Source: Morchella semilibera | Taxonomy: Eukaryota; Ascomycota; Pezizomycetes; Pezizales; Morchellaceae | DNA: 64,000 nucleotides | Direction of reading: 5' to 3' | Assembly: GCA_009192285.1 (NCBI GenBank) | Contig: WBVU01000003.1 | Location: 4,061,973-4,125,972, forward strand | Shown: piece after piece, positions 20,347-59,936 of the stretch | Numbering within the stretch: the stretch's first letter is position 1 | Layout: every line of letters starts with the position of its first letter | Translations under genes and position numbers: made by a program | The notes under the pieces: generated by a model | Told to the model about the DNA's origin: nothing | The model's input: only the letters and a program-made list of their open reading frames with translations | The model's database searches: none

Positions 20347-20622
20347 CATCAGCAAGACTTGATTTGTCTCCTGATGTCTCCTGAGCCTCAGGAGACTCAA
20401 AAAATATCCAGGAGTCTCAGGAGCATCAGCAAGCTCAATTTGTGACTGGAGTCTCCCAACAGTCTCCCGGGTCTCCTGATACTCTCCTGAGATTCCTGGA
20501 CATTTTTTGAGTCTCCTGAGGCTCAGGAGACATCAGGAGACAAATGAGGTCTTGCTGATGAGATTCTCAGGAGACTTGGGAGACTGTTGGGAGACTTCAG
20601 TCACAAGTTGAGTTTGCTGATG
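20347..20622. mobile_element. 137-bp palindromic MITE, outer copy
   Basis: The two halves, 20347-20423 and 20563-20622, make one element of exactly 137 bp once the inner copy and its 2-bp duplication are removed. It is flanked by TG on both sides (20345-20346 and 20623-20624). It lies inside the Tc1-like pseudogene. Confidence 0.92.
20424..20560. mobile_element. 137-bp palindromic MITE, inner copy
   Basis: A complete 137-bp copy inserted in opposite orientation into another copy of itself, flanked by AG on both sides. It carries the GTCTCCTGAG / CTCAGGAGAC palindrome and the CATCAGCAA-type ends. The self-nesting shows two separate transposition events of one family. Confidence 0.93.
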
Positions 20623-20993
20623 TGGGGGTTCAATAGAAAATAAAGTTACGAAAAAGTTGGGTTTCAAACTGATTGTTTCACAAAAAAATCATTGTTCCAC
20701 AAAGATCAAAAAGGAAACTGAATAGAATAGTGTCAGTCACGGAAATTATGGAGAGAGAATTGATAGAGAAAAATAAGATGGTTGTATGAGGCAAAATTTG
20801 ATTATGTTGCTAATTAGCTAGGTCAAAAGAGTGAGGGTAAAACTTACTGAAAAGTTATTAGACGGCAACTTAGCTTCTAGCTTTAAGTCAGGTCAGATTT
20901 CAATTGGTTGCTAACGAATATATATCGACGGAGGTGGATAACCACTGGTACAAGTCCGTCAGCGCGGTTTGGATGAAAAAGTTACTAAAAGGG

Positions 20994-21988
20994 TCTAATG
21001 GGGTGGGGTCACGTCAGGGGCAAGGCAAGATAAAGTCGGGCAAGGACAGGGACGGGTCGGCTTAGGAGATACCCGAGGCGAGGCAGGTTCAGGTTCAGGT
21101 TCAGGTTCAGGTTCAGAGACGAAGCGAGGACAGGAGGGTCGAAGCCAAAGTAATGTACCGCTAACAGAAAGAAGACGTTGCCTAGAGAGGCAGAAACATA
21201 GGAAAGAATGAGCACTATATATACAGCTATCCCCCCGCACCGATGACTCATACCATAGAATGCCATAGACACTCCTACACTCCCATACCACTCATACCAT
21301 TCCTGATAACCCCACTTCTATCCCGTTACTTCCCAATCCTTCCTAGCGCTTTCACTCTATTACCCAAACTCCTTCCTAATTATCACGGCTCCGCTTCCTG
21401 CACCTCGCCTGCCGCCAAGGCGTTTTCGGAACAGGGTTGTTGGATAGTATCGGTCGATGTCGGAAGTAGGATGATGGATTAGGAAGGAGCTCGGGTGATA
21501 GAATGTAAGCGCTAGGAAGGATGGGGCAGTATCGGGTTAGAAGTATGGGTATTGGGAATAGTATGGGTGGTACGAAAGTGGGGGAGGTTCTATGGGATTC
21601 TATGGGTATGAGTCAGCGGTGTACTGGGAAAGTTGTATATATAGAGTTCGTTCGTTCCTATGTTTCCGCCTCTCTAGGCAACGTCTTCTTTCTGTTAGCA
21701 ATACATTACTTTGGCTTCGGCCCTTCTGTCCTTGCTTTATCTTTGAACCCGAACCCGGCCCTGAACCTGAACCTGAACCTGAACCTGAACCTGTCTCGCC
21801 TCGGGTATCTCCTGAGCCGACCCTGTCCTCGCCCTTGTCCCTGGATATACCCCGCTTGGCTTCTAACCCGACCCCGCCCCGTTAGACTAATCCATCATCC
21901 TGCTTCTGACATTGACCGATACTATCCAACAACCTTGTTCCGGAGACACTTTAGCAAAAGGCGGGATACAGGAGGCGGAGCTGTAATA
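20994..21988 (-). mobile_element. Solo LTR, family A, interrupted by another LTR-A
   Basis: It begins TCTAATGGGG and ends GAGCTGTAATA, flanked by AAGGG on both sides (20989-20993 and 21989-21993). A second family A LTR in opposite orientation occupies 21381-21886. The hexamer run TTCAGG (about five units) is at 21090-21117. TGACTCA at 21244-21250 is 20 bp from TATATATA at 21216-21223. Confidence 0.92.
21381..21886 (+). mobile_element. Solo LTR, family A, nested, perfect duplication
   Basis: 506 bp from TATCACGGCTCC to CCGTTAGA, flanked by CTAAT on both sides (21376-21380 and 21887-21891). Its CCTGAA hexamer run has about five units. TGAGTCA at 21609 is 20 bp upstream of TATATATA at 21636, the same spacing as in the LTR it landed in. 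Confidence 0.94.
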
Positions 21989-22546
21989 AAGGGATAAACT
22001 TGGTTTGAACGGGATCCAATGTGCTAAAGAAATATACCAACCCTATCTAGTACCCTTTCTACAGGCACTATATCTAAGTTAATAGATCAATCAAATCAAA
22101 GTATTTGAGGATGAAGCAAGATATCATCACAGTCCAGCAAATTCCTTAATCAATAATACCTACCATATCCAAAACATCCCAACTCCAACAAACTCACCTG
22201 ATTTCAATCCTATTAAAAATGATTGGCATATATTTGAAGTCAGGCTTAACAAACAATTTACTGATAAAGAAAAAAAACCTTATAGTGCAGATGAGCTTTG
22301 AGAGACGATGAGGCAGGAGTGAGAAGGAATGCATCAAGTCATAATAAATCAATTAGTAGGTAGTATGCCTGAACACATTAAAACTGTAATCTCTGTACAA
22401 GGTGGCGATACAAAATGGTAAAACCTTTTCTCAGTCACTATTCTATTACTCAATTGCTATTTCATTACCATTTCTTGGATTTAGCATAGGGGTGCTAGGA
22501 CTTTTCGAATGCGGCTATACTGGATGTTGAAGGTATATATGAAGAA

Positions 22547-23080
22547 TGTTACAGGGCTTGACGTTGACAAGGATCAAGAGAGCCCAAGTACACAACCGAG
22601 AAGTGGCGAGGACCGGAGCGGGATCGGAGCGGGGTAACGGTAATAGACAACACCGACTATGGTCGTGGACGATATGCAACAGATACGAAGGCGAGCAGGA
22701 ACTCTGCCGGAGCGGAGACTATGATTAGGCGAGACGAGGACATGAGACAAGATGCAGCACAGTTCTATTCGTATTCAACCAAGGTACACGTAGACTAAAG
22801 AATCTAGAAGCGAAGCAAATAACAGAGACGCACGAGTTAAGAGAACCCCAAGGGTAGGGTTGAGAACAGGAAGAACATGTAAGGAAAGAAAGAAAGAGAA
22901 AGCAACAAAGGAAAGACTCATAGCCAAATATATATACTAGCCCACACCCCTGTCCAGGAATGACTCATAACTCGTGTAACGGAAAAGCATAGAAACCTAA
23001 AGTCCAAAACAGGAACTCGTAGTGCCAAAAGCATTCCACAATATCCTTTCTTCCTTCGCAGTCTGTGGTACACCATGATA
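22547..23080 (-). mobile_element. Solo LTR, family C, diverged
   Basis: 534 bp from TGTTACAGGG to ACCATGATA, flanked by AAGAA on both sides (22542-22546 and 23081-23085). It shares CACAACCGAG, the TATATATA box and ATGACTCATAAC-type sequence with the other C copies. Confidence 0.88.
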
Positions 23081-23147
23081 AAGAACCCTGGTGTTATTGA
23101 GCAATATATGTAAGGATTCAGATTGGATCTAGCCATGGGTTGGCCAC

Positions 23148-23512
23148 TATCACGGCCTGGAGCATACTTAACGATGTTGCGGGAAGAAGGATTTCCTTAG
23201 GGTTCTATGAGTTTCTATAAGATAAGTCAGCGAAGGGATTTTGGGGCTATATATAGGGAACTTTCTCCCTCGCTTATAGAATTTCTCTTTCTTCCTTTTC
23301 TTCTTTATGCAACCTTCCTGTTAAATTACGTAATTTAAACTTCGGGACTCCTAGCTCCCTACTCTAGCTTGTGCTTCATTACTCGATACTAGAGACCCAC
23401 TGTACTCTGCCTCGCTCCCCCTTTCTGCTTCGCCCTGTCTTGCCTCGCCTCGCTCTGATTTGGTGTTATACTTTGGCAAGTTTCGACCCCGTTCTCGCTT
23501 TGCTCCGTGATA
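23148..23512 (+). mobile_element. Solo LTR, family D, short form
   Basis: 365 bp from TATCACGG to CTCCGTGATA, flanked by GCCAC and GTCAC (one transition). It shares GTTGCGGGAAGAAGGAT, GCTATATATAGGG and the AGTCAGCGA box with the LTRs of the Gypsy element at 56531-62834, but is about 120 bp shorter. Confidence 0.82.
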
Positions 23513-24975
23513 GTCACGTTGAGAAGTGGAGTAATTCATATCAATATACTCAAGCTGTGAAGCTTGAAGCCAGCATCAATGCAAGCTAGCATCAACACTG
23601 TGCAGTCGGGATTGTTGCCGTGAATCCTGGATCAACGTCATGAAGCTAACATCAACGCCGTAAAACTCAACTCTGTGTAAGCTCAACGTTATAAGACAGA
23701 AAGAAAGAAGGGCTGATCACAATGAAAATACCTGATATAGGGAAACAACAAAGGATGAGAGAGTTAGGATTATTGTCCTAAAAGATGTAGGACAAAGCTG
23801 GAAAGAGATCTCTAGACAAGTTAATATAGACTATCGTACCCGTCAGCGAATCTATAGAAGGGTTAGAGAAAATGCTACTACATCAAATAAGAGTTGACAG
23901 GCCCGGGGATGGTCAACTCTCTTTACCTCAGAAGAAAGAGGGAGACTACAAGTATTTATTATCAGGAATAAGAAAACACGGTGAATTCCTTTTGAATGTA
24001 TCGTACAAGAGATAAGATATGCTTGTAGTCCACAAACTTTAAGTAATGTATTAGCTTCTATGGGCTATCATAAACATCTTTCCCATAAAAAGTAAAATCA
24101 CTAGTCCCTTTACTAGCTACAATACTAATAATGAGTGGGTAAAGAATATGTCCTCAGAATGTAAGTAAGAGGATAAACTGATGTCAAGCTAGACTACATT
24201 GGACCTATGATGACTGGCTTAGCAGAGTATGGACAGATAGATCTGTCTTCAATACTGCTGGTTTTGATGATTGACCCTGAGTCCTTTGCCGACTAGAAGA
24301 AGAATACAATCCTGATTGGTTCAATAAAACCTGTAGGTCAGGAGGACAGGGAATAATGATTTGAGGTGCTTTGTGTAGAGAGATGAAGTCTGAGCTAGTC
24401 TTCTCTACCCCTAAAGTAACCATCAAATCTGCAGTCTATCGAGATCATATCCGAGATCCTTATCTCATTTCTTTTTAGCTTCGTACATGTGAAGAATATG
24501 GATGGAAACAGGTTGTTGAAGATAGCGCTTGTGGTTATAAAGGCTTATCTATTCCATTTTGGGAAAGAAATAAAGTAGAAAGTCTTGAGTAGCCAGCACA
24601 GTCGCCAGATATCAAGCTGATAGAAGCATTCTGGCTGTTACGGAGCAACATGGAGACAACAGACAAGAGAGCCGAGTTATACAACCAAGGCGGAAACAAG
24701 GACGAGGAAGAGGGGCAACGACAAAAGAACCTAACCGAAGAGCAGGGTCGTTAGGCAGAGGGTCCAAATAGTCTCCTTTACGAAAACGTAGAGACGAAGG
24801 TACTAGTAGACAATACGGAATATGGTCATGGACTATGGGCGGGACGAAGACGAGGTGTTGGTCAAAAACGAGACGAGATTCTATGGAAGACCCAAGGGGG
24901 TCTTGGCAGGACTATAGTGATGATGTCGTTTATTCAGAACTAGAGACAAGACACAAACAGAGCTAAACTGTTAGG

Positions 24976-25474
24976 TCCAACGGGGCGGGGTTGGATTCAG
25001 GAATGAGGCGGGGTAGGTTTCAGGAACAGAGGCAGGATGGGGTCGGCTCAGGATACACCCGAGGCTAAGCAGGTTCAGGTTCGGGTGCAGGTTCAGGTTC
25101 GAAGTTAGGTTCAGAGACGAGGCGTAGACAGAAGGTCGGAGCCAAAGTAATGTATTGCTAACAGAAAGAAGACGTTGCCTGAAGAGGCAGAAACATAGGA
25201 AAGAACGAACACTATATATACAACTTTCCCCTCATACCGATGACTCATACCATAGAATTCCATAGAACTTCCTACACTTCCGTATCACCCATACTATTCC
25301 CGATAACCCCAATTCTATCCCGTTACTACCCAATTCTTCCTAGCGCTTACATTTCATTACTCGAGCTCCTTCCTAACCCATCATTCTACTTCTGACATCG
25401 ACCGATACTATCCACCAACCCTGTTCCGAAAATGCCTTAGCGGAGGGCGAGGTGCAGGAGGCGGAGCCGTGATA
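24976..25474 (-). repeat. 3' LTR of Gypsy-2 (family A)
   Basis: 499 bp, TCCAACGGGG to GCCGTGATA. It shares long private stretches with 31629-32302 (GATTCAGGAATGAGGCGGGG and GGCTAAGCAGGTT), which pairs these two as LTRs of one element rather than the family C LTR that lies closer to pol. Confidence 0.88.
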
Positions 25475-25517
25475 GTTGCCCTCTCTTTAGGTTCGAGCTC
25501 CGCGAGAACTCCGTCAG

Positions 25518-26108
25518 TGTTACGGAGCAACACGGAGACGATAGACAAGAGGGCCGAGGTACACAACCGAGGCAGGAACGAGGACGAAGATAAGAGACAA
25601 GGGCGAGGGAGCTTAACCGAGGAGCAGAGTTGTGGGGCAGAGGGTCCAGATGGCCTCTCTGACAAGGACGTGGAGATGAAGGTACCAGTAGACGACGCGG
25701 ACTACGGTCATGGACTATGGGCGAAGCGAGGCGAGGCGAAGCGAGGGAACGAGACGAGACAAGACGAGGCAAGGCAAGACGAGATACTATGACAGACCCA
25801 AGGGGGTCTGGGCGACAACTATGGTTATGACGTAATGTATTCCGAGACTAAAGATATGAAGCAAGATGAAACTAAACCGTAGGGTTGATAACAGGAAGAA
25901 CACGTAAGGAAAGAAAGAGAAAGAAAAGAACAAAGGGAAGATCCGTAGCAACGTATATATACCCCTCCTAATCCCTGTACAGTCATGACTCATCACATCG
26001 TGTAACGGAAACCCATAGAAACTCCAAGAACCCAAAAGAAAACCTTATACCCGAAAACCTATTCCCCAATATCCCCCTCCTCTGCGAAGTCCGTGGTACG
26101 CCGTGATA
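25518..26108 (-). mobile_element. Solo LTR, family C, inside Gypsy-2
   Basis: 591 bp from TGTTACGGAGCAAC to CGCCGTGATA, flanked by GTCAG on both sides (25513-25517 and 26109-26113). It sits between the pol end and the 3' LTR of Gypsy-2 and could be mistaken for its LTR. TGACTCA at 25986 lies 24 bp from TATATATA at 25954. Confidence 0.93.
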
Positions 26109-26113
26109 GTCAG

Positions 26114-29100
26114 ATCTCGGCTTGGTAGGGTACGCTGTATGAAAGCGGAACAAGAGGTGGGGAACATTGGTAAGATTCTCAGCATATTCTCAACTTGGTG
26201 CGTCATAGCCCTTCCACTTAACCAAGTACTGCAAACACGAATAACGAAGGCGGCAATCTAGGAGCTCATCAACTTCCCATTCCTCATCACCGTCAACAAT
26301 TACCGGCGGTGTGGGAGGGGGAATATGTCCTGGTGAGGGATCAATAGCGCAGGGTTCCAGCTTCAAAATATGGAAGACAGGATGTATCTTCATTGTCGAG
26401 GGGAGATCAAGTTCGTAGGCGTAAGGACTAATAATCGACTTAATTTTAAATCGACCGAGACGTTTCCAATCGAGCTTCCGGGATGGCCTAGCAGTCTGTA
26501 TATTCCTGGCATTCAACCATACCTCATCACCTACCTGGTAAACTGGAGTGGGGATTCGGTGAACATTGGCATTGGTCTCCTGTCGATCTTGGGCATAACG
26601 AATGTCAGTTTGCAACTGATCGTGGATTTCAGCCATCTTCTGAACAAGGGTATTAACATTCTGAGAGCGATCGGTAAGCGGAGGTAGTGCTAGGTTCTCC
26701 GTAAAACGTGGGTCGAAACTATAATTAGCCATAAAGGGAGAAACTTGGGTCGTTTCCGAGGAATGATTATTAGAGGCAAATTCGGCGAGCGGTAACCAGT
26801 CCACCCAGTCGTCTTGCTGATATGATACATAGCTCCGCAGATACTGTTCCACCACTGTATTAATTCGTTCCGTTTGGCCATCAGTTTCGGGGTGAAAAGC
26901 AGAGGACATAGCGACATCAATCTTCAATAGCTTGCAAAGAGATTTCCAGAACCCAGACGTAAACTGAGTACCGCGATCAGAGACAATGCTGATTGGAAGA
27001 CCATGAAGTTTCCAAACATGGTTAATAAACAAACGTGCAAGGTCTTCAGATCCCGTGGTAATATTGCAGGCAATGTAGTGTCTCATCTTGGATAGACGAT
27101 CGACTACTACGAGAATCACATCTTTTCCCCTACTCTCCGGCAGTCCTGTAACAAGGTCCATGGAAATGTATGTCCAGGGTCTCTGGGGAATCGATAGAGG
27201 GCGAAGGACTCCATAAGGGGCATGGCAGGAGGTCTTGCTTCGACTACAGGTATGGCAGTTTCTCACATAACGATCTACTGTACTGCGCATTCCGGGCCAA
27301 TAATACGAGCGGGCGAGAAGTTGGAAAGTCTTTGCCTTCCCCAAGTGTCCTGCGGACGGAACATCATAGTGTTGCTGAAGCAAATGCAGGTGCAGAGTAA
27401 TATCATTTGGGACAAAGAGCTTTCCGTAGTAGGTTAGAAGACCTTTCCTGGTTGAACATTCTGCTAAAGTAATCTCTCCGGAGTGCCTAACGCCATCTCA
27501 AAGGAGTCCTAGAATCTTATTTGGAAATGGCTCAGTGACATAAGCCTGTTCAAAAAGTTTTTCTAGGGGTGACTGTCCTCGGACAGCCGGAATCGCTCCC
27601 AACAAACCCAAATTATGGGATTTCAACACTGTCTGACTTTGCTGCGTCAGGCGTTAATCCCCCTCTTTAGGCAGATCTCCTGGTCTCCTAGTCAATGCAT
27701 CCGGTTTTCCCCCTTGCTTTCCTGGCCGATAATTAATCACATAATTAAATCGCAAAAGGAACTCTGACCAGCGTGCCTGTCGGCGATTCAAATCTCTCTT
27801 GGTAATAAAATATTGCAAATTCCGATGATCGCTCAGGACTTCAATAGGTTCGGCGACACCCATCAGTTCAGCTCTGCACTCCTCGAAGCACTTGATAATA
27901 GCTAGCAATTCTTTATCGTAGATCTCATAATTGCATTCGGCGGGGGAGTGAGTTCCGGAGAAATAAGCAACAGGATGAAGAATATTCTCATCACTGTACT
28001 GAGAGAGAGTACCACCTGAAATATAGTCTGACGCATCTGTTTCCACAATGGCTCGGCAATCGAAATCAAAATGTCGGAGAATCGGGGCAGTGGTAAACGC
28101 AATTTTCAATCCTTCAAACGCCCCTTCGCAAGCCGGGGACCATATAAATGGTACATTTCCTTTGGTAAGCGTAGTAAGAGGAAGAACAATTCCCGAATAA
28201 TTCTTAATAAAACGCCGATAGAAATTTCCCCAACCACTGAACACCTGTATATTCCTAACGTTTAGGGGACGAGCCCACTTAACGATGGTTTCAATCTTCT
28301 TGGGGTCGAGCTTTAGGCCTTCGGTGGTGACAATTATTCCCAAATACTTTACTTCCTTAACCTGGAATTCGCACTTCTCGGGGGAGCAATAGAGATCGGC
28401 ATCGGTGAGGGCTTGCAGAACCTGGTTAACATGGTCGCGGTGTGACTCCAAATCCTCACTATAAATAGGGATATCATCGAGGTAAGCCGTGCAGAAACGG
28501 TCCAAAAAGGGACGAAGAGTATCATTGATAAAATGCTGAAAGACAGCAGGAGCATTGGTCAATCCAAAGGGCATCACTTTATACTGTAAGTGGCCAACTC
28601 TGGTACGGAATGCGGTTTTCCATTCATCTCCAGCTGCAACTCGGACCAGGTTATAGGTATTTTTCAAATCCAACTTGGTATACCATTTGGCCTTGCAAAG
28701 TTGATTAAACGTCTCCTTGGACAGCGGCGTTGGATAGCGATTCTTAATGGTAATAGCATTCAGGCCTCGGTAATCCACACAGAATCGAAGTCCACCACCA
28801 GGCATTTTTACAAACAGAACAGGGGATCCGGCGGAGGAAGAGCTAGACTCGATGAACTCTTTTTTCAATATATCGTCAATGTATTCAATCAATGCGGCCA
28901 GCTATCCCGAGACATACTATATAAAGGACCGAAGAGGGGTTCTTTTCCCTCATGAAGATTAATCCGAATATCATAGAGACGGTGCAGGGGCAGCTTCTGG
29001 AGACGTTCCTTTCCAAACCGTTGCCAGAAGTGATGATGTTCGGGAGGGACTAAAGTGGCAATTTCCGGGGGTATCGACTCCGTAGAACCACTAAGGAACA

Positions 29101-29685
29101 GGGCATAAACGGTTAGTCCCTGGGTGGTTTCGGCAAAGGTGGCAGCACTGACAATCTCAAAGTCGTGATTAGCGGGTAGCGGTGAAGTAATTCCCTTAAC
29201 ATAAGCGGGAACTTGATCATCATTGCAACGTTGGAGAAAGCGAGGGGACCCGAAGGTCAACGGGTTACCGGCGAAGTTAATAGCAACATTGTGTCAGCGC
29301 AGCCAGGAGATTCCTAGCACCAACGGATAATGTCCTAGGCGGGTAACATAGGCGGAAATCTTTTCGGTATGACCTCGGATGTGAAGAGAAAAGTGGGCAA
29401 TATGGGTAATGCGACCAGAGGAGATTTCTCTTCCATTGATAACATGAAGAGCGCGGGGATTAGGAAGAAGAGTAATGGAAATTTCCTTGTGGCGTACAAA
29501 TGATTCATCAATGAATGCGAATCCGGAAGCCCTGGTGTCGACAAGTGAGTAGGTTTTAACAGTTTTATTCTCATCAGATACGATACATGAAACAACAGGA
29601 TGATCGTTATCCGAAACCTTCTCATCAGAGACACCAGAAGCAGCAGAAGCAGACAAAGAAAGAGGAGGGACCTGGCCTAAGCCAC
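26114..29685 (-). pseudogene. pol: Gypsy-2 pol pseudogene (PR-RT-RNase H-IN-chromodomain)
   Basis: In translation order the domains are as follows. The aspartic protease (29656-29294) has its catalytic DTG altered to DTR, followed by TGA at 29294. The reverse transcriptase contains TAYLDD and the RNase H contains VETDASDY (28892-27654). A one-base frame change lies near 28890. The integrase (27383-26190) has a Cys pair in NCHTCSRSK, then MDLVTGLP, IVSDRGTQF and HPETDGQTERIN carrying the D-D-E residues. The GPY/F region is followed by a C-terminal chromodomain (EWEVDELLDCR, YLVKWKGYD). The chromodomain is cut by TGA at 26190 where a tryptophan is expected; in-frame homology continues beyond it to about 26115. 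Further stops lie between 27384 and 27654. The protein is non-functional. Confidence 0.9.
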
Positions 29686-31595
29686 CTAAGACAGGTCCTC
29701 GTGAAAACCCGACTGATTTGGGGCAATAGCAGAACTCGAGCCCGGAGAACCCAAACCCAAGGAACCAGAACCAGAGGAAGAAGAAGCACCAAAAGGAAAC
29801 CCAAAAACATAACCCGAAGAAGAAGAAGAACGAGAAGCATGGTTAACAAGAGGAGGCGCGCCGGCCCCAGACATAACGGGAGGTACACCGACCTCAGAAG
29901 TAGCAGCAACACGAGCGGGACGAGCAACAGAACGAGCAGGACATTCAGCGGCAAAATGCCCAGGACCTCCGCAATACATGCAGAGCCCTTAGGCGGCGCG
30001 GCGGGCGCGTTCGGTGGGAGTAATAGGCCCACGGCGTTGAGGGCGACGGGCACCAGAGAGATCCATTGGCACTGCACCACCTGGAGAATAAGAGGGATGA
30101 GGAGCAGGAGCAGGAGTACGGGCAGGAGCGGAGGAAGCAAAGGGTTGATGAGCGACGAAGTGGGAAGAGCGATCTCTAGCACGAGCATCCCGGAGCCTGT
30201 TGTCCAATTCCTGAAGGAAAAGAACATATTCCGAGGTGGCGGCAGGGACGTTAGGGTGGAACATGGCAGAGCGGAGCTCACGAGAGAGCCCTTGGGTAAG
30301 TGCATGTCCCTTGGCTTCGTCACTCCACCTAACCTCAGCAGCCAAGCGTTGAAACCCAGCGAAATAGGTGGAGAAGTCTCGGCCTCCTTGTGTCAGGCGC
30401 TCGAGTTCCCGTTCGGCGGTGGCAATACGATCAGGATCCCCGAAGGCGGTCCCCAAGATGGTAATCAGAGTATCACGGCTCCGCCCTCTGCACCTCGCCA
30501 CTCGCCAAGGCGTCTTCGGAACAGGGTTGTTGGATAGTATCGGTGGATGTCGGAAGTAGAATGGAGGATTAGGAAGGAGCTCGGGAATGGAATGTAAGCG
30601 CTAGGAGGGATTGGGAAGTGACGGGATAGAATTGGGGTTATTGGGAATAGTACGGGTGATACGAGAATGTAGGAGTTTCTATGAGGTTCTATAGTATGAG
30701 TCATCGGTGCGGGGGGGGATAGTTGTATATATAGTGTTCGTTCTTTCCTATGTTTTCGCCTCTCTAGGCAACGTCTTCTTTCTGTTAGCAATATACTACT
30801 TTGGCTTCGGCCCTCCTGTCTCCGCCTCGCCTCTGAACCTGAACCTGAACCTGTCTCGCCTGGGGTATATCCTGAGCCGACCCTGTCCTGTCCCTGTCCC
30901 TGAAGTTTACCCCGTCTCGTTCCTGAACCCGACCCCTCCCCGTTAGACAGAGTTTCAATATCTTCAAAGTCAATACGTCCTCCAACAACAAGAGGCATCA
31001 TCTGGGCAAGGGCACGACCGGAGAGGAGATTAAAAGTATAGGCGAGGCGGGCTTGGGCGGCGGGGAACCAATTGTGATTAGCGAGCATTTTCAGGCGAAG
31101 TTGGGTTACAAAGGGACGAAGCTCCTCCCTCTTGCCCTCAAACTTAGGCGGGTCGGGGACCTTCTCGGACCGGGGAGTAACAGCGGCCGGAGGAACTACC
31201 GGAGAGACAACAGGAGGAGCGGGAGGAGGGCCCGACGGAGGTGGAAGAGGTTCAAAGTGTACTTGTCGAAGAGGGGGAGCAGGAGGGACAGCAGGAGGAG
31301 CGGCAGCCTGGGCACGAAGACTCTCATTAATTTGACAGACTTCCGCCAACTAAGTTTGTAGATCAGCCACTTGGGCAACAAGATCTTGGGCGCCGTCCGC
31401 TGCGTTCAGAGCATGGTCTCGTTCGGCCGTCATATGGGCCATATCAGCACGGGCTTGATTCCTCTCGGTGAGGACCCGATCGCGGATTTGTGAAATCGGG
31501 GTCAGGTTTCAGTGTAAAAGGACGGAATCAACGCTAAATTGTCGTTGGAATTCGGCGAGAGCAGCGGGGAATACTCATTCTGTTTGAGCGGACAT
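29686..31595 (-). pseudogene. gag: Gypsy-2 gag pseudogene, split by an LTR
   Basis: The start is probably at 31595. The first part has TGA and TAG stops, including one at about 31350 where LQTQ is expected, and then a proline-rich segment and a capsid-like region (LRPFVTQLRLKML). An LTR-A at 30471-30947 interrupts it. The second part (30465-29686) contains the capsid C-terminal region (LTQGGRDFSTYFAGFQ), a TAA at 29989 and then a CCHC zinc knuckle (CMYCGGPGHFAAEC) in the same frame. Confidence 0.85.
30471..30947 (+). mobile_element. Solo LTR, family A, inside Gypsy-2 gag
   Basis: 477 bp from TATCACGGCTCC to CCGTTAGA, flanked by CAGAG on both sides (30466-30470 and 30948-30952). It is in the opposite orientation to the host element. 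The CCTGAA run here has only three units. Confidence 0.94.
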
Positions 31596-31628
31596 AGTGT
31601 ATCGGGAGCCAAAGGGGAGGCAACGTAG

Positions 31629-32302
31629 TCTAACAGGGCGGGGTTGGATTCAGGAATGAGGCGGGGTAGGTTTCAGGAACAGAGGCAGGACGGCATCAGC
31701 AAGACTTCATTTACCTCCTGATGTCTCCTGAGCCTCAGGAGACTCAAAAAATCTCCAGGAGTCTCAGGAGACTCTCAGGAGACTGGGGAGACTGTTGGGA
31801 GACTGCAGTCATAAGTTGAGTTTGCTGATGGGGGTCAGCTCAAGATACACCTGAGGCTAAGCAGGTTTAGGTTCGGGTGCAGGTTCAGGTTCGGATTCAG
31901 GTTCAGGTTCAGGTTCGGGTTCGGGTTCGAAGTCAGGTTCAGAGACGAGGCGTAGACAGAAGGTCGGAGCCAAAGTAATGTATTGCTAACAGAAAGAAGA
32001 CATTGCCTGAAGAGGCAGAAACATAGGAAAGAACGAACACTATATATACAACTTTCCCCTCATACTGATGACTCATACCATAGAATCCCATAGAACTTCC
32101 TACACTCCCGTACCACCCATACTATTCCCAATAACCCCAATTCTATTCTGTTACTACCCAATCCTTCCTAGTGCTTACATTTCATTATCCGAGCTCCTTC
32201 CTAACCCATCATTCTACTTCCGACATCGACCGATACTATCCAACAACCCTGTTCCGAAGACGCCTTGGCAGAGGGCGAGGTGCAGGAGGCGGAGCCGTAA
32301 TA
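31629..32302 (-). repeat. 5' LTR of Gypsy-2 (family A) with MITE inserted
   Basis: TCTAACAGGG to GCCGTAATA. After removing the MITE and its duplicated GG it is about 535 bp, longer than its partner LTR mainly through extra TTCAGG/TTCGGG hexamers (31880-31935). Confidence 0.88.
31694..31830. mobile_element. 137-bp palindromic MITE in the Gypsy-2 5' LTR
   Basis: Exactly 137 bp, CATCAGCAAGAC to TTTGCTGATG, flanked by GG on both sides. The uninterrupted target is visible in the partner LTR (GGATGGGGTCGGCTC near 25048), which confirms the insertion point. Confidence 0.94.
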
Positions 32303-33939: not shown

Positions 33940-35826
33940 CTATAAACCTTTTCCCCATATTATCTCCGCCCGGAACCCACTCAATTTACTCCACTCCTTC
34001 TCTGGTACCTCTCTCCCCGTTTCAATCTCTATAACTACCTGTTTTAATCCTCTTTCACGATCCTTCCTCAGAACCGTCTCCCACCTTCCCGCATTAAGCG
34101 TCCTCGTCACCGGCCTCTTCACACATCTGTCTGTATTTTGAAGCCCTGTCTCTTCATTACCCCTCCCCATACCTATTCTTGTATCTCTCCCGATATAACA
34201 CGGATTTCTCACTGGATCCGGCACTAGAGATGTCGCATCTGGTGTAAATACATCGATATAATAGCTCCCTGTATTGCATCCAACGCCCCGGAATACAATC
34301 GATGGCGCAACCGTCTCAGTCTTTTGCGCCGTACTCACGAGAGACACCTGGTCAGGCGAAGCAGGGGGTGCGAAAAGGTAGCCAAGACTCTTAGTATCTT
34401 TCACCATGTCACCAATCGTTGTGTACATCCATTGCCTCGACTCGTCGTAGCTCAATGTCCTTGCGTTGTTTGTGAATGGACGCAGCGGATATGTAGCGGT
34501 AAAGGTGAGTCCAGGTCGTGTCCTAATGTAGGATTCGACAATACGATCGATATTTGAGTGGAAGCTAAGGAAAATGGGATCGAATGCCGTATGCGAGCCA
34601 TCTGCCTTTCAATCCCAGTATTGTTAGCTTAAGCCCCTTCCGTTCGTGATTTCATGCTTATATCGGCGTATAAAGTACACACCATATCTGGTCCAGTCCA
34701 ACCATGAATGTTATCATGAGGCTGCTCGAGCAGTCCATCAAAGTCCGTTCGATTGGGAAATAACCTGTCATTATGATCCTCTACAAGTAACATTAGATTC
34801 GCCCATGGCTTTCCGAACGGCCTTAGTGCATCCATCGGCTGACTGTAAACATCCTGGCGTAGTGCCATCTCAATCTGGGATTGATACAAGCCGAAAAGTC
34901 GTATCTTCCTGTCCCACTCTGGTCCCGGGGTTCGGGAAACGAGCACCGAGTCTCGCAACACGTACCGCGGAGGTGAGACAACCGCTGATAGCATTGCGTA
35001 CTTTAGTGGGTTCTTACGCAGGCCAAGGCTGCTATGCGTGTATGTCTCTTCAAGGAATTCTGCTGGGATGCCAGAAAACGGGGATTGTGGATCGGTAGCT
35101 TCGCGACAGAGAGCGTTCCAGAAGGGTATGGGATAGTCTATAAGTTCTTCCACGTAGCAGAGGAAGGCTCGGTGCCAGAGAAAGGTGGCTTCCTGGTAAT
35201 GTAGACACCAGTTGGCATCTATGGATCTATTAGCTAGTCACCCACCCCGATGACGGTTGCAGCCTACGCAAGAGTCCTAGTTCTTGCCATTTGCCCTTGG
35301 CATCACCGACGTTGAGTACCGTGTCCAATCTTTCTCGATACGTTTGCAGCTCCTCCGGCGTGAGACTTCTAATATCCTTCCGCAATCTATATTTTTTATC
35401 ATCCTCCTTCGGCTTTGATATCACCTCCTGAGCTATTATCGCATCGTGATCATTCTTCCTAAATCCTTGATTCGCCCAGTCCCGTATGATCTCGAGAGCC
35501 TCGACTGGGAAGTAGTGAGAAGGATCATCTGTTAACGGCATAGATCTGGATCGTAGATGTTGGTAGATACTCAGGGCCCCCTCCTTAACAGTTGTGTAAG
35601 AAGAGAGATCCCAAGGACCATACTTCTTCATAGCATTAATCCACCCAGACCCAACGTTATAGCGAGATGACTCCGGAAGCCAATACGGAGCAGTGAAGAG
35701 CTCTGATACATCAGAATCCCAGGTCGGAGTAGAGTTGAGAGGATCAGACGCTGATGCTCTGGCCGTTACGGACGGAATTTCCGATTCATGACTGGCAGAG
35801 GCGCACTTGCCGAGTGAGCAATGCAT
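33940..35826 (-). CDS. Tyrosinase-family copper oxidase, three exons
   Basis: Exons 35826-35268, 35218-34683 and 34605-33940 join in frame through introns of 49 and 77 bases (donors GTAGGC and GTGTGT), giving 586 residues. Splicing restores both copper sites. CuA reads LLHANWCLHYQEATFLWHRAF, with eight residues between the second and third His as in tyrosinases. CuB reads HDNIHGWTG followed across intron 2 by FDPIFLSFHSNIDR. The domain is the common central domain of tyrosinase (PF00264), which oxidises monophenols or o-diphenols to quinones on the way to melanin-type pigments. No signal peptide is evident at the chosen start, so a cytosolic enzyme is inferred; an upstream exon cannot be excluded. 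The first 100 residues are Ser/Thr-rich and low in motifs. All six histidine positions appear to be present and there are no internal stops, so it is probably functional. Confidence 0.88.
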
Positions 35827-38168: not shown

Positions 38169-38305
38169 CATCAGCAAGACTTCATTTGTCTCCTGATGTC
38201 TCCTGAGCCTCAGGAGACTCAAAAAATATCCAGGAGTCTCAGGAGACTCTCAGGAGACTTGGGAGACTGTTGGGAGACTCCAGTCACAAGTTGAGTTTGC
38301 TGATG
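38169..38305. mobile_element. 137-bp palindromic MITE
   Basis: Exactly 137 bp, CATCAGCAAGAC to TTTGCTGATG, flanked by AT on both sides, inserted in apparently unique intergenic sequence. Serves as a clean reference copy of the family. Confidence 0.94.
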
Positions 38306-39987: not shown

Positions 39988-40809
39988 CCTGGTACCTTGG
40001 CATCAGTGCCGATAGTTTAATAATCATGGCGCTGTTGTAACTAATAGGGTTATACTTAGCAAGATTAGAATGAGATGTGTGATAGAGTAACCAAGAGGCA
40101 AGGTAACAGATGATAATAATGACACACAAGGACTCAAAGGGCACAGCTAGCATAACAAAAACACTGATAAGGAAGAGAGGAATACTGGGCAGGCACAAGC
40201 ACAGGCACGGTCGAGGGCAAGGGCAAGGGCAGAGACAATCGAGGCACAAGACAGGGAGAGTGAGACCAGATGGACCTCAACGACTCATCAGCAAGACTTC
40301 ATTTTTCTCCTGGGATTCTATGGCGTGAAGTGTTTGTAATATAATTAGAGAAGATAGTGGAGAGGAATACAAAGTGTGGTTGCGATGGATTTCTATCAGT
40401 TTTTATGGGAGAAGGTATGAGTCATAGCGGACTGATGGAGGAGGGTTTTAAATAGTGCGGAAAGACTTTTCCTTTAGTTCTTTCTTTCTTTTCTCTTCGT
40501 ATCGTCTTTCTGTTATCTCGGTACATAGGAATATACTCCTATCTCTAGCCTATAGTTTCTCACACCCAAGACCTCGCACTCTTTGAAGAAAATCCATATT
40601 ACCTCTCATCGTTCTTGTTGAGGTCCATCTGATCCTCGTTTCCCCTGCCCTGCACACTTTTGCCTCTGTCCTTATCTTTGTGTTCACTGATGCCTGTGCT
40701 TGTGCAGGCTTGGTGTTTCCATCTACGTCAGTGTCCTCGTTATGCTGGTTGTGCTCTCTGAGTCCTTCTGCGTCATCATTGTCATCTTCTATATTGCGTC
40801 GGGTTACTC
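39988..40809. mobile_element. Mosaic of three family B fragments and a MITE stub
   Basis: 39989-40030 resembles the start of family B in + orientation. 40077-40284 is the start of a copy in - orientation (TGTGATAGAGTAACC). 40286-40311 is the first 26 bp of the 137-bp MITE. 40312-40809 is the rest of a family B copy in + orientation, ending at GGGTTACTCC without its last six bases. The MITE stub marks a deletion junction. Confidence 0.7.
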
Positions 40810-43281: not shown

Positions 43282-43682
43282 TCTTAAGGGGGCTCAAGGG
43301 TGTAGCTTCGTTCTGCAGGGTGCGGGGTAGTGACAACGATAGTTCCCAACAGGGGGGAAGTATGAACGAGAAGTATATGAGACAGCGATAGTCACTAGTA
43401 GAAAATAGAGACTATGATGTATTGTAGATAGATACAGAAGACGTTGCGTAAAGAAAAGAGAAAAAGAAAGAAAGTACATGAGTAGGCGCCGTTGCCTCCC
43501 TTATATACCCGTTATTCCAGAGCCAAGCCTGACTCATACCCTCATGTAACCCCAACCATGACTCATATTCTCGCGTAACAGAAACCTATATAACCTATCC
43601 TGACTCACCCCCGCCTCCTAGCTTACAGTAATCCCAATCCCGCCAATCGTTCCAACCCCCCGAACCTAACGTATCCATGAAA
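43282..43682 (-). mobile_element. Solo LTR, family E, nested in LTR-B
   Basis: 401 bp from TCTTAAGGGGG to CCATGAAA, flanked by CCGCT and CTGCT (one transition). The interrupted host word is CCGCTATGACTC, as seen intact in other B copies. TATATA and TGACTCA have the same order as in the other E copy. Confidence 0.88.
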
Positions 43683-44132
43683 CTGCTATGACTCATACAT
43701 TCACCCATAGAAATCCATAGAAATCCATCGCAACCACACCTCGGATTCCTCCCCACTATTTTCTCTAACTATATTACACATCCATCATGCCATAGAATCC
43801 CATTGAACCTCATAACGTCAATTCCACTTTACCACATACCCCCCTCGCTTAACATTCCTTCATTAGTTAAATCAGTGCTTCAACAACCGAACCTTTGGGA
43901 TCTATGCCAAGATGCTGGGACAGCCCGTTCCATGCCGTGATATTCTAGAAAATATAGACACCCAACAGGGAACACAATGCAGTTTTCCCAAGGTTTAATG
44001 ATCCTATGTTTCACATAGAGAATTCTGCACTTCTAATCAGATATACATGCGAGCACCATAATATTGTAATTACAAATAGGCCTTAAGTGATCTATTCTCA
44101 TATTTACCGATTCTATGCCAGTGGGCCTGCTA

Positions 44133-52200: not shown

Positions 52201-52222
52201 CATGTGTATTGGTATTCAGGAC

Positions 52223-52855: not shown

Positions 52856-53071
52856 AGGACTTTGATTTTTACTTATATTAATATTAACAATTGGTGGTAT
52901 TCGAAAGCTTTGTTTTTCTATATTGATATAATTGATGATTTGACACATAAGTAAATATTGATATTGTTATTATAATAATTAAGATTGTAGTTTAAAATAA
53001 CTCTTGATCGCACATTTTTTACCTTGACCACGCAATTCTAAAGACTCCTTGCCTACTATACCTAATACCAC

Positions 53072-53511
53072 AATGCCTCAAACTTTCAACGAGGATTCTT
53101 CTACTGAAATTCATTGCATGGTCAAACTCACCAATAAGACAGACAAGACTGGTTATCTTAAAATCTACGATTCAACTCTATCTCGCTGGAGTGAAGGTTT
53201 ACCCTCTTCAGTGATCGATGAACATCAGCAAACTCAACTTTTGACTGGAGTCTCCCAACAGTCTCTCAAGTCTCCTGAGAGTCTCCTGAGACTCCTGGAT
53301 ATTTTTTGAGTCTCTTAAGGCTCAGGAGACATCAGGAGACAAATGAAGTCTTGCTGATGAAGAAGATATACCATGTCATATTGTTTGTTTTATCAACGAT
53401 TCCCTTTCAGAACCTACCGAAAGCTCTGTTAATATATGTTCAAGCAGGTTTTGCGATATGGGTAAAAACAAACCAGTTGTTGTAACCTTACTAAATAAGA
53501 ACGAGTAAGTG
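53072..53511 (+). pseudogene. Unknown element-borne coding region split by a MITE
   Basis: A frame starting at the methionine of MPQTFNEDSS (53073) runs to SSVID and is then interrupted by the 137-bp MITE. Coding-like sequence (EEDIPCHIVCFIND to VVVTLLNKNE) continues after it to a GTAAGT-like donor at about 53506. No domain is recognised. It may be the first exon of the protein continued at 53561. Confidence 0.45.
53223..53359. mobile_element. 137-bp palindromic MITE in a coding region
   Basis: Exactly 137 bp, CATCAGCAAACTC to GTCTTGCTGATG, flanked by AA on both sides. Interrupts the unknown frame at 53072-53511. Confidence 0.93.
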
Positions 53512-53560
53512 AATTAATTTCTATATATTATATTATAACTAATGTTTTTCTATTTAGGTT

Positions 53561-53900: not shown

Positions 53901-54191
53901 AGGGCGGCCAAAAAAAAATCAATGGATCCATTCAATTCTACCACAGAAGTAGCCAGTCATGCTGATTTTACTATTATAGGTAAGGTCTCCAGGGCTGAAG
54001 GCAATGGCTTTTCAATACTCATCATCAACACCACCCCGTGTATGAGAGTATCAGTGAAGGTATCAACCCCATCAATATAAGCTAGACATGAGACTAATTA
54101 ACTCTTAGAAAGATTACTACAATCAACACAGAATGAAGCTAGCCACAATCCTACCTCCCTCCGGGGTACTAGTCACTATGACCCTAATTCT

Positions 54192-54845
54192 ATGACCTCA
54201 ATTCAGGATTCAGTGACCTCGATTGAGTCAGATGCGAATTCTGCAACTTTTACCCAATGGCTTGTGACTCCAAGATATCGCGACCTCGATTCCGCGACCT
54301 CGACGCGACGCGACCCCAATCCCGACCCGCATACTGTGATCCAGTATAGAGATTCAGGGAAAAATGCTAATGGTCATATTGAAGGAATTATAGGGGAGGG
54401 TGAGGGTATATTGGAGCCCGCAAGTGGAGTGGAATTTAGGCAATGCGGAACCCTTTGCAGTATTTTGTTGGAGGTTAAGCCTTGGTCAGCTATGTGAGGG
54501 GAGGTTGCTAGGAAGTGGAGCGAGGTGTTCAACAATATGAAGGAAAGAAGATTTTGGAAATTGCGGAAGAATGCTTATCCTTTTACAAAAGACTATATCG
54601 AAGATCTGATAGCATATAAGAATGAATCATCAGATGCGAGTAATAAACAAAAATCAAGAAAGATCCGAAGCTTTCCATTTACTTCAGGACAGGTACGGTT
54701 ACCTAAAAATAAAGAGGTTATCAAGCTAATATTATTTTTCTAGATGGCAAATGGACTCGTATCTGCTTTGGAAAGGATAGAGCATGAAATGAGTAATGCG
54801 TTGGGGGTACAAATTACAAGTGTAGCTGAAAAACGGCAAGCTGGA
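54192..54845 (+). pseudogene. Unknown coding remnant with a probable intron
   Basis: The frame from 54192 (MTSIQDSVTS) has a stop at 54495 but continues in-frame as WSEVFNNMKERRFWKLRKNA to about 54690. There a GTACGG donor and TTTTTCTAG acceptor could remove a 50-base intron before MANGLVSALERIEHEM. A family A LTR remnant follows directly. No domain recognised. Confidence 0.4.
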
Positions 54846-55107
54846 GATTCTATTGTATGAATCATCGGTGCGGGGGGATAGCTGTATATATAGTGCTCGT
54901 TCTTTCCTATGTTTCTGCTTCTCTAGGCAACGTCTTCTTTCTGTTAGCAATATATTACTTGGCTTCGGCCCTCCTGTCCTCGCTTCATCCCTGAACCTGA
55001 ACCTGAACCTGAAACTGCCTCGCCTCAGGTGTCTCCTGAGCCGACCCGTCCCTGTCCTTGCCCGACTTTATCTGGCATTGCCCCTGACGTGACCCCGCCC
55101 CGTTAGA
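54846..55107 (+). mobile_element. Solo LTR, family A, 5'-truncated
   Basis: Only the right half is present, from about the TATGAATCATCGGTG box to CCCCGTTAGA; about 230 bp of the left end are missing. It contains TATATATAG, GCAACGTCTTCTTTCTG and three CCTGAA units. Confidence 0.8.
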
Positions 55108-56530
55108 GGATATCTCTGATGAAATATCTATGGAGACACTTGCCTTTGACTATCGTAGAATAGAGCTTACTGAAACGGCAACAACATTTCGGGAACAGTT
55201 ACTACCTCAACAGTTGAAGGCCTTTGATACTATAATTAATACTATTGATAATATATTTATCGGGAAAGTTCCTGACCATACATGTTTCTTTTTGGATGGG
55301 GAGGCTGGTCAGGGGAAAACATATATTGTTAATACGATTGTAAATTACTTACGAAGATAAGGGGATATTGTTGTTATTACTGGTTCAACTGCCTTAAGTG
55401 TTACCCTATATGAGAGGGGTCGTACTGCACACTCTGCATTTAGAATTCCTATCGTTGAGGTAAAGTTAATTTATTTAATAGTTTTAGTTAATACCATAGC
55501 TAACACAATAGTATTAGAATCATATGGAACTACAATCTACCTTAAGAATCAGGTCAGATCGAGCCAGATTACTATCGCAGTCAAGCTTAATTACATGGGA
55601 GGAGCTGCCTATGGCCAACAAAGCAGCGATTGAATGTGCAGATGAGTTCTTGCAACTTGTGCTTGCCAACGACAAGCCATTTGGTGGCAAAGTATTCTTT
55701 GGTTTAGGAGACTTTCAATAGGTAGCACCAGTGGTAAAGTCAGCAGGACCAACAGCTACACTCAAAGCCTCCATACGATCGTCCTACCTTTGGCAACAAT
55801 TTAAAATCCTACAACTGGATACACCTATAAGAAATGCTTCTGATTTAGAATATGCCGAGTGGGTGGATCAAATCGGAGATAGCTGTCAAGAATCGAATGA
55901 ATCATTTGTCAGTCTAGATTTAATTGAGCCTTTAGATACTATCGAGGAAGCCATAGATTCTCTATTCCCTCCAGAAGTATTACAAGATCCAGCGACAGTC
56001 TCTCATCATGCTTTTCTCAGCCCTCTTAGTATCAATATAGACTAATTCGGACTGGCAATTCTTGAAAGATTTCCGACGATGGAGGGTATGTATATTTTTT
56101 CTCTGCTAGTTATGAACGATGATAAACTAATATATCCATATCTAATAGAAAGAACCTACTACAGTCACGATTGTATCAAAGAGGATCCTAACTTCATATC
56201 ATCTACAAACAATGTTCTACCCTCTAGAGAAATTCTTGATTTCCTGTCTATATTAAAGGAGCCTGGTGTGCCACCATATAATTTGGTTTTGAAAGTTGGA
56301 TGTGTTTGCTCGATAATGCGAAATCTATCCCTAGAAGATAGCTTGGTCAAAAATTCCCGAGTAGTTATTAAAGAGCTTCATGAGAGGTTTATTGAGGTTG
56401 AATTGATATCTACTGCAGAAAATATAAGATGAGAGACAACTATCTTCTCTCCCCCTAGAATCCCATTTAAATCTCAGCCTAAATATTGCTCTTTGATAGT
56501 ACAGAGAAGGCAATTTCCTTTACGACTAGC

Positions 56531-57017
56531 TATCACGGAGCGATGCGTAGAGATAGTCGAAAGGGCCAAGGTACACAACCGAGGCAAGGGGGGGATAGAG
56601 CGAAGCGGGGCGAGGTAGGCGAGGTAGGAGATATCGGAATCACTAAGAGCGAAGACACAAGGTAGAAGAGTTCACAGAGACTATGGAGGTGAAGCAAGAT
56701 CCCCGAAGGGAGTTCCGAAAACTAGAAACCCGAAAATACAGTACTGACTAAAGAGACAGGAAGGTTGCGTGAAGAAGAAAGGAGAGAAAGAGAAACTCTA
56801 CAAGCGAGGGAGAACACTCCCTATATATAGCCCTAACATCCCCTCGCTGACTCATTCCCTAGAACCCCCTAGAACCTTAGAGAAACCCTATCTATTATCA
56901 ATCCATATCCCGCATTAACTTATAACATCCCTGCCACAGAAACCCTTAGAACCTAATAGAAAACCCTGACTAATCCTTCTTCCCGCAACATCACTCCATA
57001 CCTTCCATGCCGTGATA
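56531..57017 (-). repeat. 3' LTR of Gypsy-1 (family D)
   Basis: 487 bp from TATCACGGAGCG to CATGCCGTGATA; the ends are inverted TATCACGG/CCGTGATA rather than TG...CA. TGACTCA at 56848 is 18 bp from TATATATA at 56822, read on the minus strand as TGAGTCA upstream of TATA. Confidence 0.95.
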
Positions 57018-57041
57018 GATATTAGGTCCCCTCTCTGAGGC

Positions 57042-59936
57042 CTAAGTCCTCTTAGGCTTGCGTGGGTATCGTTCGTGAAAACCTTTAACTAGCTCGGGAG
57101 AGTTATCTAAGTCACCATGGGGTTGCCATGAGGGGTCGTCGTAACCGGTATATCGAACGAGATACTCCAATCTTCCGCGTCGCTTGCGAGAGTCCAGAAT
57201 AGCATCAACTTCCCACTCTTGCTCGCCTTCGATCTCAACGGGGGGCGGAGGCAATTGTATTTGACCCGGAATAGAATTTTCGGCAGCGGGCGAGAGCAGC
57301 GAGACGTGGAACACTGGGTGAACTTTCATCGAGGCAGGTAGCATAAATTCGTAGGCATAGGGACTGACGACACGAGATACAGAGTAGGGTCCTATTTGCT
57401 TCCAGTCCAATTTCTTCGATGGTCGCTTGGTTAGCAAATTACGAGTGGACAGCCATACTTTATCCCCAATACTATAACGTGGTGCCGGAGTGCGACCTGC
57501 ATTGGCCGACTCCTCCTGCATCCGTTGAGCTCTAAACATTTCTGCTCGCAGAAAGTCAAACACTTCTGACATATCTCTTGCCATAGTATTGGCCTGATCC
57601 TCATTTGTGGTAGTACCATGTCGTAGAGGGCCAAAATTCATTCGTGGGTGGCGACCATACATCAGCAAACTCAACTTGTGATTGGAGTCTCCCAATAGTC
57701 TCCCAAGTCTCATGAGAATCTCCTGAGACTCCTGAATATTTTTTGAGTCTCATGAGGCTCAGGAGACATCAGGAGACAAATGAAGTCTTGCTGATGTAGT
57801 TCACCTCGAAGGGAGAAAGCTTGGTTGATTCGGAAACGTGATTATTGGTAGCGAACTCGGCCATGGGTAAATAAGTGGCTCAATTATCCTGTTGATAATT
57901 CACGTAACTTCGGAGATATTGTTCCATAATAGCATTGATTCTCTCGGTTTGGCCGTCAGTCTGAGGGTGAAAGGCAGTGGAATATCTTGGTGAAATTTCG
58001 AGACGTTCGCATAGTGATTTCCAAAAGTCCGAGGTGAATTGGGTACCGCGGTCTGAGACTATCCTTTCCGGAAGGGCATGTAGTTTCCAAACGTTTTCCA
58101 AATACATTTGGGCGACATCCCTTGCTCCTGACTCTTCAGTGCATGGGATAAAGTGTCTCATTTTTGTGAGACGGTCTACGACGACAAGAATGGCATTGTA
58201 GTTATCACTAAGGGGTAACCCGGTAACAAAGTCCATTGAGACATCTGTCCATGGTGCTTTAGGAACCGAAAGAGGGCGAAGAACTCCTTGTGGAGCGTTG
58301 CGATTTGCTTTGCTTCGGCGACAAATATGGCAGTTCAAAACATAATGGTCCGTGTATCTCCGCATATTCGGCCAGTAATATTCGCGGCTGAGGAGCTCAA
58401 GAGTTTTTGCTCTACCGGGGTGTTCTGCTGATGGTTTATCGTGATACTCTCGAAGAAGTCTAAGCTGTAACTCCTCATGTTCCGGTACAAAGAGTTTGCG
58501 TCGATAAAGAAGAAGTCCATCATCATTCTCCGCACATTCGGCAAGGGAGATTTGTTTTGATTGCTTCGTGCCATCTTTCAGCATCGTGAGTACCTTATTG
58601 GGAAAACTATCTTCTTGGTAAGCTTTTGCAAATAACTCTTGAACAGTGGGCGTTCCTTCAGCGGGTTCATTTGCCAAAGAACCCGCCAACAAACTTAGCT
58701 TATTATCCACATTTTTCCTCTTTAGCACCGTCTGATACTGATACGCAAGGCGTTTGTCCCCCTCCTTAGGAAGATCCCCTGATCGCCTGGTGAGTGCATC
58801 CGGTTTCCCTCCTTGTTTGCCTGGGCGAAATTGAATAACAAAGTCAAAACGCGATAGAAATTCTGACCAACGAGTTTGCCGGCGATTCAAAAGCTTGGTT
58901 GACATAAAGTATTCAAGGTTCCTGTGATCTGTCAGGACCTTGATGGGATACGAGGCTGTCTCCAAAAAATAGCGCCATTCTTCAAATCCCCTAATAATTG
59001 CCAGAAGTTCTTTGTCATATATTTCATAATTGCATTCCGCCGGGGTGTGTTTCTTGGAGAAAAAGGCAACTGGGTGTAGAATTCCTTCGTCGTCCCTTTG
59101 TGACATAATAGCAGCGGAGACATAATCGGAGGCATCTGTTTCCACAATAATTTCCCGGTTCGGATCGAAGTGTCTAAGAATGGGAGCGGTAGTAAATGCG
59201 AGCTTGAGTTCCTGAAAAGCGTTTTCCGTCTTATCCGTCCACTTGAATACCACTCCTGTCTTTGTTAGAGCGGTCAAAGGAGATACTACCCTTGAATACG
59301 CATAGATAAATCGTCGGTAGAAGTTCGCAAATCCTAGAAATTCCTGCACATCTTTCAGGCAAGTTGTAGTTTCCCAGTTCCTTATGGTAGCGACTTTGGA
59401 TTCGTCCATCTTAATCCCTTCAGGTGTAAGAACAAAGCCGAGATACATTGTTTCCTTGACATGCCATTCACATTTTTCGGGCTTGAGGTGGACTTGATTC
59501 TCGTCGAGAATTCTGAGGACCTTGTCAATATGTTCTTTGTGTTCTTCAAGAGTAGTCGAATATATAAGGATATCATCGAGATATGCGGTGGCGAAATGGT
59601 CGAGATGCGGGCGGAGCATGTCGTTGACCCAGTGTTGGAACGCAGCGGGAGCATTGGTCAATCCAAAGGGCATAACAGTATATTTAAAGTGGCCGTATCG
59701 CGTCCTGAATGCCGTTTTCCACTCGTCTCCTTCCCTGATTCTTAACTGATGGTAGCCATTGCGAAGACCCAATTTGGCAAAATACTTGGCTGAGGAAATA
59801 CCCATAAAAGTTTCCGGTGTTAAGGGTAGGGGGTGTCGATTCTTCACTGTTCCTGCGTTTAACTTTCTATAATCTACGCACAGTCGGAGAGAGCCATCCG
59901 CCTTCTTGACAAACAATACCGGGGAGCCTGCGGGGA
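57042..59936 (-). pseudogene. pol: Gypsy-1 pol: RT, RNase H, integrase, chromodomain
   Basis: The reverse transcriptase keeps LRLCVDYRKLN and TAYLDDILIYS (the YLDD active site). RNase H keeps VETDASDY and [11 protein letters not shown]. The integrase keeps a zinc-binding Cys pair (NCHICRRSK) and all three acidic residues in MDFVTGLP, IVSDRGTQF and HPQTDGQTERIN. A TGA at 57880 replaces an expected tryptophan (QQDN-stop). The MITE at 57660-57796 then splits VNY from GRHPR; removing it and one TA leaves the frame exactly intact. The C-terminal part has a GPY/F-like region (LDWKQIGPYSV) and a chromodomain (EWEVDAILDSR, YLVRYTGYDDPSW), which in this element class guides integration to particular chromatin. 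Apart from two or three lesions the protein is complete. Confidence 0.92.
57660..57796. mobile_element. 137-bp palindromic MITE inside Gypsy-1 integrase
   Basis: Exactly 137 bp, CATCAGCAAACTC to GTCTTGCTGATG, flanked by TA on both sides (57658-57659 and 57797-57798). Because the host LTRs differ by only about 2%, this MITE moved recently. Confidence 0.95.

Follow-up and report, generated by a model that had tools for sequence, protein, structure and literature searches.

The 64,000 nt stretch of Morchella semilibera DNA analysed here (contig WBVU01000003.1, positions 4,061,973 to 4,125,972; hereafter the window, whose numbering is used unless a locus is named) carries copies of a 137 bp miniature inverted-repeat transposable element (MITE). 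This element is very probably a non-autonomous, PlavakaB-type transposon that is moved in trans by a Plavaka transposase resident in the same genome, and it most likely represents a new MITE family of a known lineage, PlavakaB. Its CATCA..TGATG termini, and the identical 2 bp flanks found in 42 of 45 copies, match the description of PlavakaB in the available excerpts of Kojima 2025 (PMC12730594).

Length, copy number and target-site duplication

The genome searched comprises 56.76 Mb in 23 contigs. The pattern CATCAGCAA-N119-TTGCTGATG matches 560 times per strand (the same palindromic places), and the reversed pattern, used as a control, gives 0 matches, so the abundance of the MITE is more than chance. 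When the same ends are sought at total lengths of 122–152 bp they occur at 610 places, and 560 of these (92%) are exactly 137 bp; both counts leave out copies with mutated ends. A similarity search returned 959 first-look candidates, 40 of which were scored. The element has the features of a MITE, being short, non-coding, uniform in length and high in copy number, with terminal inverted repeats and a target duplication, and it is too small to encode a transposase. The ends are asymmetric (CATCAGCAAGACTT... and CATCAGCAAACTCA...), going on after CATCAGCAA with G and AC, and between them GTCTCC / CTCCTGAG words are closely packed, repeated in either orientation. A prokaryote genome collection searched with a MITE end gave 0 matches, as expected of a eukaryotic repeat.

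Flanks were compared for 45 distinct copies (43 of 137 bp, one of 136 bp and one of 135 bp) from the window and fetched loci. This sample is non-random, being drawn from the window, from loci found by similarity or near Plavaka genes, and from copies of contig C1, and it leaves out the interrupted outer copy of the window (see below), any copy in which a 9-base end has two or more mismatches, and any lying too close to the edge of a locus. The 2 bp flanks are identical in 42 of the 45 copies, against a chance expectation of 6.4%; one copy matches over 3 bp and two over 4 bp. In a table of registers, the two base pairs of the 2 bp rule agree in 42 and 43 of the 45 copies, and all others in 6–18. 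Genome-wide, an S base (G or C) beside the left end was combined with a W base (A or T) at the second position past the right end, the one direction of mismatch counted, in only 8 (+ strand) and 12 (− strand) of the 560 copies, while about 139 such cases would be expected under independence (arithmetic from 45.7% GC).

The duplications among the 42 copies are TA (11), AA (8), TT (7), TG (4), TC (3), AG, GA and CT (2 each), and GG, AT and CG (1 each). TA stands at both flanks in 119 of the 560 copies (21%), about a threefold enrichment over its 6.7% share of window dinucleotides. The original prediction of a fixed-length MITE family with a 2 bp duplication not tied to one sequence is thus borne out by the 560 places and by the flanks, and the register and empty-site tests leave the boundary and the duplication length where they were placed. 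The duplication is constant in length with a mild preference for A/T and for TA, so that the claim of an unspecific duplication holds for the many dinucleotides used but not for the frequency of TA.

Unoccupied relatives of the insertion site are present in the fetched sequence for 22 of the 42 copies, and in 19 of these the junction is gap-free best with 2 bp removed. In the window, the copy at 31694–31830 (+ strand, duplication GG) lies within a repeat whose unoccupied relative is found at 24975–25114 (92.9% over 140 bp, no gap), and five of its seven relatives are gap-free once 2 bp are removed. A further case is the copy at 20347–20622 (+ strand; TG at 20345–20346 and 20623–20624), which is split by a second copy nested within it at 20424–20560 (− strand, duplication AG). 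The outer copy spans 276 bp, or 137 + 137 + 2, the last being the duplicated AG. Once the insert and one AG are taken out, its 137 bases align gap-free to the copy at 38169 with 97.8% identity, so the nested case checks itself.

Spread without transposition, by segmental duplication or by recombination among structured repeats, is highly improbable. It could draw on the strong folding of the 38169 copy (RNA −64.4 kcal/mol, z −6.3; DNA −30.7, z −4.4) and on the position of 22 of the 42 copies inside other repeats, but the identical flanks of copies in differing contexts, the unoccupied relatives and the self-nested insertion all speak against it, and the empty sites refute it in the main. The folding may be no more than a consequence of carrying the words in both orientations.

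Plavaka elements and the likely transposase

The Plavaka domain (PF18759) has 128 matches in the genome, some of which are pieces of one gene. Twenty Plavaka regions were fetched; the assignment of element frames to Plavaka is by Pfam match, and seven frames from these regions were scanned. KDZ transposases were rejected as drivers, there being two matches in the genome at one locus.

Family 1 is represented by an element of 10,239 bp (L031 joined to L041) with ends CATCAGCAAGCTTGCAGTTGTCTCC and CATCAGCAAACCTGCCGATTT and a 762 aa frame carrying a Plavaka domain (Pfam, E 2e-66). The ends of this 10.2 kb family, CATCAGCAAG and CATCAGCAAAC, resemble those of the MITE. The larger, transposase-coding element with CATCAGCAA ends that had been proposed as a search target was found, but its ends resemble the MITE ends without being identical to them. 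An 863 bp block, 100% identical at L031 1741–2603, L032 1836–2698 and L026 8272–7410, abuts the left end of three family 1 elements, which are less alike than the block itself (about 97% in pairs with L026); the block could have arisen by misassembly or by a joint duplication in the very recent past.

Family 2 (L036–L039) has an end reading CATCAGCAAGATTCAAACTCTCTCC and a 700 aa frame with a Plavaka domain (Pfam, E 5e-54). Three of the four fetched copies are 99.8–99.9% identical over 5.7–6.1 kb (L039, 95.8%), suggesting that this family was recently mobile. Inside it, at L037 1118–1647, lies a 101 bp tandem array (5.2 copies, 99% matches) with units that hold CATCAGTAGTCTCCGGAG and several CTCNGGAG words. 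This array, with its CTCCNGAG-type words, was rejected as the end of family 2, the sequence that L037 shares with L036 and L038 continuing to the locus edge. One end of a third Plavaka group (L021–L023) reads CATCAGGAAAAAA, and one end of L040 reads CATCAGCAAGCTTGGGG.

Both families share sequence with the MITE. The family 1 ends (CATCAGCAAGCTTGCAGTTGTCTCC and CATCAGCAAACCTG) go on after CATCAGCAA with G and AC, as the MITE ends do, and differ from the first MITE end by four mismatches in 25, but the words in common are only 10–11 bases long, and CTCCNGAG-type words number 0 and 1 at the two ends. Family 2 shares an 11-base terminus and CTCCTGAG-containing words of 13–14 bases. Its last 400 bp hold seven CTCCNGAG/CTCNGGAG words, a number reached by 0 of 2000 first-order shuffles; the whole window outside the MITEs holds 12. 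The words CATCAGCAAGA, GTCTCCTGAGCCT and CTCAGGAGACTCTC are also common to family 2 and the MITE, in a comparison made without a shuffle control. By these comparisons, the interior words of the MITE appear closest to those of family 2, and its termini closest to those of families 1 and 2 alike.

Stowaway, Tourist and other MITEs are, like the present element, short, palindromic, non-coding and high in copy number, and in Stowaway and Tourist the mariner or PIF transposases leave duplications of TA or TWA. The Morchella family differs from the Tc1/mariner type (Stowaway) in that its duplications are not TA-only, by either of the counts given above (119/560 and 11/42). CACTA/EnSpm elements carry subterminal repeat words, as does the MITE, and share with it CA..TG ends and a short duplication. 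In the excerpts of Kojima 2025 (PMC12730594), Plavaka stands in the CMCT clade alongside CACTA/EnSpm, and CMCT elements mostly have CA..TG ends and 2–5 bp duplications; the EnSpm families of rust fungi have CAC..GTG ends and 3 bp duplications, neither of which is found in the MITE. PlavakaA is described there with TGT..ACA termini and a 2 bp duplication. It is like the MITE in that duplication, and the Plavaka transposase is PlavakaA's too, but its termini are absent from the MITE. PlavakaB (section 3.2.2 of the same source) has 5′-CATCA..TGATG-3′ termini and duplications of 2 or 3 bp, and thus agrees with the MITE in both, with Plavaka transposases residing in the same genome. A PlavakaB transposase is further marked by C(2)C and H(3-4)H motifs. 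The MITE is distinguished by its fixed length of 137 bp, its lack of a transposase and its hundreds of copies, and the PlavakaB description, as excerpted, includes no MITE. The original comparison covered Tc1/mariner, PIF, piggyBac and hAT; the implied misfit of the family to all known superfamilies is therefore not upheld.

Some PlavakaB elements carry a Tet_JBP gene, according to the same excerpts (Kojima 2025, PMC12730594). Tet_JBP has 11 matches in the M. semilibera genome (four above the family cut-off), and none in the seven scanned Plavaka-region frames. Transposase and Tet_JBP matches occur at near-equal coordinates on the contig pairs C9/C10, C12/C13 and C21/C22 (e.g., C9 and C10 at 35150–35521), a pattern that an assembly of both haplotypes, or of duplicated chromosomes, would give; such contigs might provide presence/absence pairs for dating insertions.

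A number of observations weigh against the PlavakaB assignment. Three of the 45 copies have no 2 bp match, namely two with mutated ends and L054, which fits a 4 bp duplication (GACT), and three of the 22 empty-site cases align better with other lengths (two at 1 bp, one at 3 bp). Matching 2 bp flanks are found in one of the four family 1 elements with both ends read (L027/L043, TC..TC). The flanks of L031/L041 and L026/L042 read AT and TA, the left one being the shared 863 bp block and perhaps not their own, and those of L035/L045 read AA and TG; for L027/L043 and L035/L045 both ends are presumed to belong to one element, about 1.5–2 kb between the loci being unread. Two further family 1 right ends were sought, of which L046 stopped short of the terminus and L044 gave no match, and the second end of family 2 was not reached within the fetched loci. 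A parent with MITE-like long ends but without the MITE body was sought with two genome patterns, which gave 1 and 0 places. Both patterns are narrow, and the first barred G at base 30 and hence family 1, so this absence is weak evidence. As the patterns yielded no parent with identical ends, the case for membership is built on the termini, the duplication and the words instead of on descent.

The missing full-length parent, under the patterns used, and the one match in four among family 1 flanks could also be taken to mean that a separate, undescribed transposase lineage moves the MITE, its Plavaka-like ends reflecting convergence or an old common origin. We consider this improbable, as the termini, the asymmetry after CATCAGCAA and the subterminal words all coincide with those of resident Plavaka elements. 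CACTA-type transposases are likewise present in the genome, with 25 domain matches to Transposase_21 (PF02992). Mobilisation by a CACTA/EnSpm or other CMC transposase (e.g., Mirage) would accord with the general range of ends and duplications of CMCT elements, but it is unlikely given that the excerpted CAC..GTG ends and 3 bp duplications of rust-fungus EnSpm (PMC12730594) contrast with CATCA..TGATG and 2 bp here, and that 10–11 terminal bases are common to the MITE and the Plavaka elements of the same genome.

In the portions of the literature consulted on Plavaka with MITEs, and on miniature elements of mushrooms and basidiomycetes, no such family is described, and a search for the literal terminus sequence gave nothing related among the papers listed, as judged by title. 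Since eight unnamed MITE families are listed beside 28 Plavaka families for Agaricus bisporus in the excerpts of PMC7473861, a relative of the 137 bp MITE may already be present, unnoticed, among the entries of a repeat library.

Copies in the window and neighbouring repeats

Six copies of 137 bp, once nesting is removed, had been predicted in the window with duplications TG, AG, GG, AT, AA and TA; on re-reading, all coordinates, lengths and duplications agree. Five of them are uninterrupted, at 20424–20560, 31694–31830, 38169–38305 (+ strand, AT), 53223–53359 (− strand, AA) and 57660–57796 (− strand, TA). Unoccupied relatives exist for the last of these, the best about 70% alike. A 21-base palindrome is found at 19098 and 20511 (+ strand) and at 20396, 31743 and 38218 (− strand); in the copies at 53223 and 57660 it carries mutations.

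Three remnants in the window had been overlooked. An older copy of 136 bp (19012–19147, − strand) has both termini mutated to TATCAGC and no remaining duplication. A degenerate copy with approximate bounds (16322–16458, − strand) shows 6 and 10 mismatches in its 30-base ends and is about 75–82% identical to other MITE copies. The third is a solo MITE end of about 25–29 bp (40286–40314, + strand), which was rejected as a possible autonomous element, being a short stub fused to an unrelated high-copy repeat. That repeat, at 40286–40600 and 43674–43802, is interspersed and has long inverted arms; it gave 1382 first-look candidates genome-wide, and the 40 scored are mostly 80–86% alike.

On the − strand, the stretches 26190–31349 and 57880–62287 resemble Ty3/gypsy retrotransposons, with frames for reverse transcriptase, RNase H and integrase, and the MITE copies at 31694 and 57660 lie close to them. 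Many of the fetched loci (L033 9035–9674, L024 1419–2044, L030 1609–2241 and others) contain a repeat of about 640 bp at roughly 77–96% identity, sometimes inserted in other elements. No Rfam family was found in the window when it was scanned at gathering scores.

Age of the family and proposed mechanism

The 43 full-length copies differ from their consensus by a mean of 4.0% (0.7–9.5%). Their pairwise difference is 6.8%, and C>T and G>A are the commonest changes. Several positions divide the copies into groups, as successive rounds would give, and these patterns suggest that amplification took place in rounds of different age. The recent amplification originally proposed would then hold for part of the family, which by sequence divergence is partly young and not uniformly recent.

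Under the favoured PlavakaB-type reading, a Plavaka transposase (CMCT clade, related to CACTA/EnSpm) would be supplied in trans from elsewhere in the genome and would bind the subterminal GTCTCC / CTCCTGAG words and the CATCAGCAA ends. The two CATCAGCAA ends would be paired and the MITE excised, in a cut-and-paste manner, and then inserted at a target whose two strands are cut two bases apart, which would yield the 2 bp duplication with its mild TA preference. We tentatively suggest that the family has no surviving full-length parent and might be cross-mobilised by the distinct, recently active family 2, whose recognition would depend mainly on the CATCAGCAA terminus and on the subterminal CTCCTGAG words. 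If so, the MITE would amount to a pared-down, tightly packed set of binding words for the transposase and would reveal the requirements of Plavaka.

We know of no test so far of the chemistry or binding sites of a Plavaka-type transposase. The puzzle of a 2 bp duplication that is not TA is most likely explained by a recently defined fungal transposon lineage, and the M. semilibera genome holds natural substrates of small size, in their hundreds, for what is probably a Plavaka-type transposase, with the CTCCTGAG words as candidate transposase binding sites.

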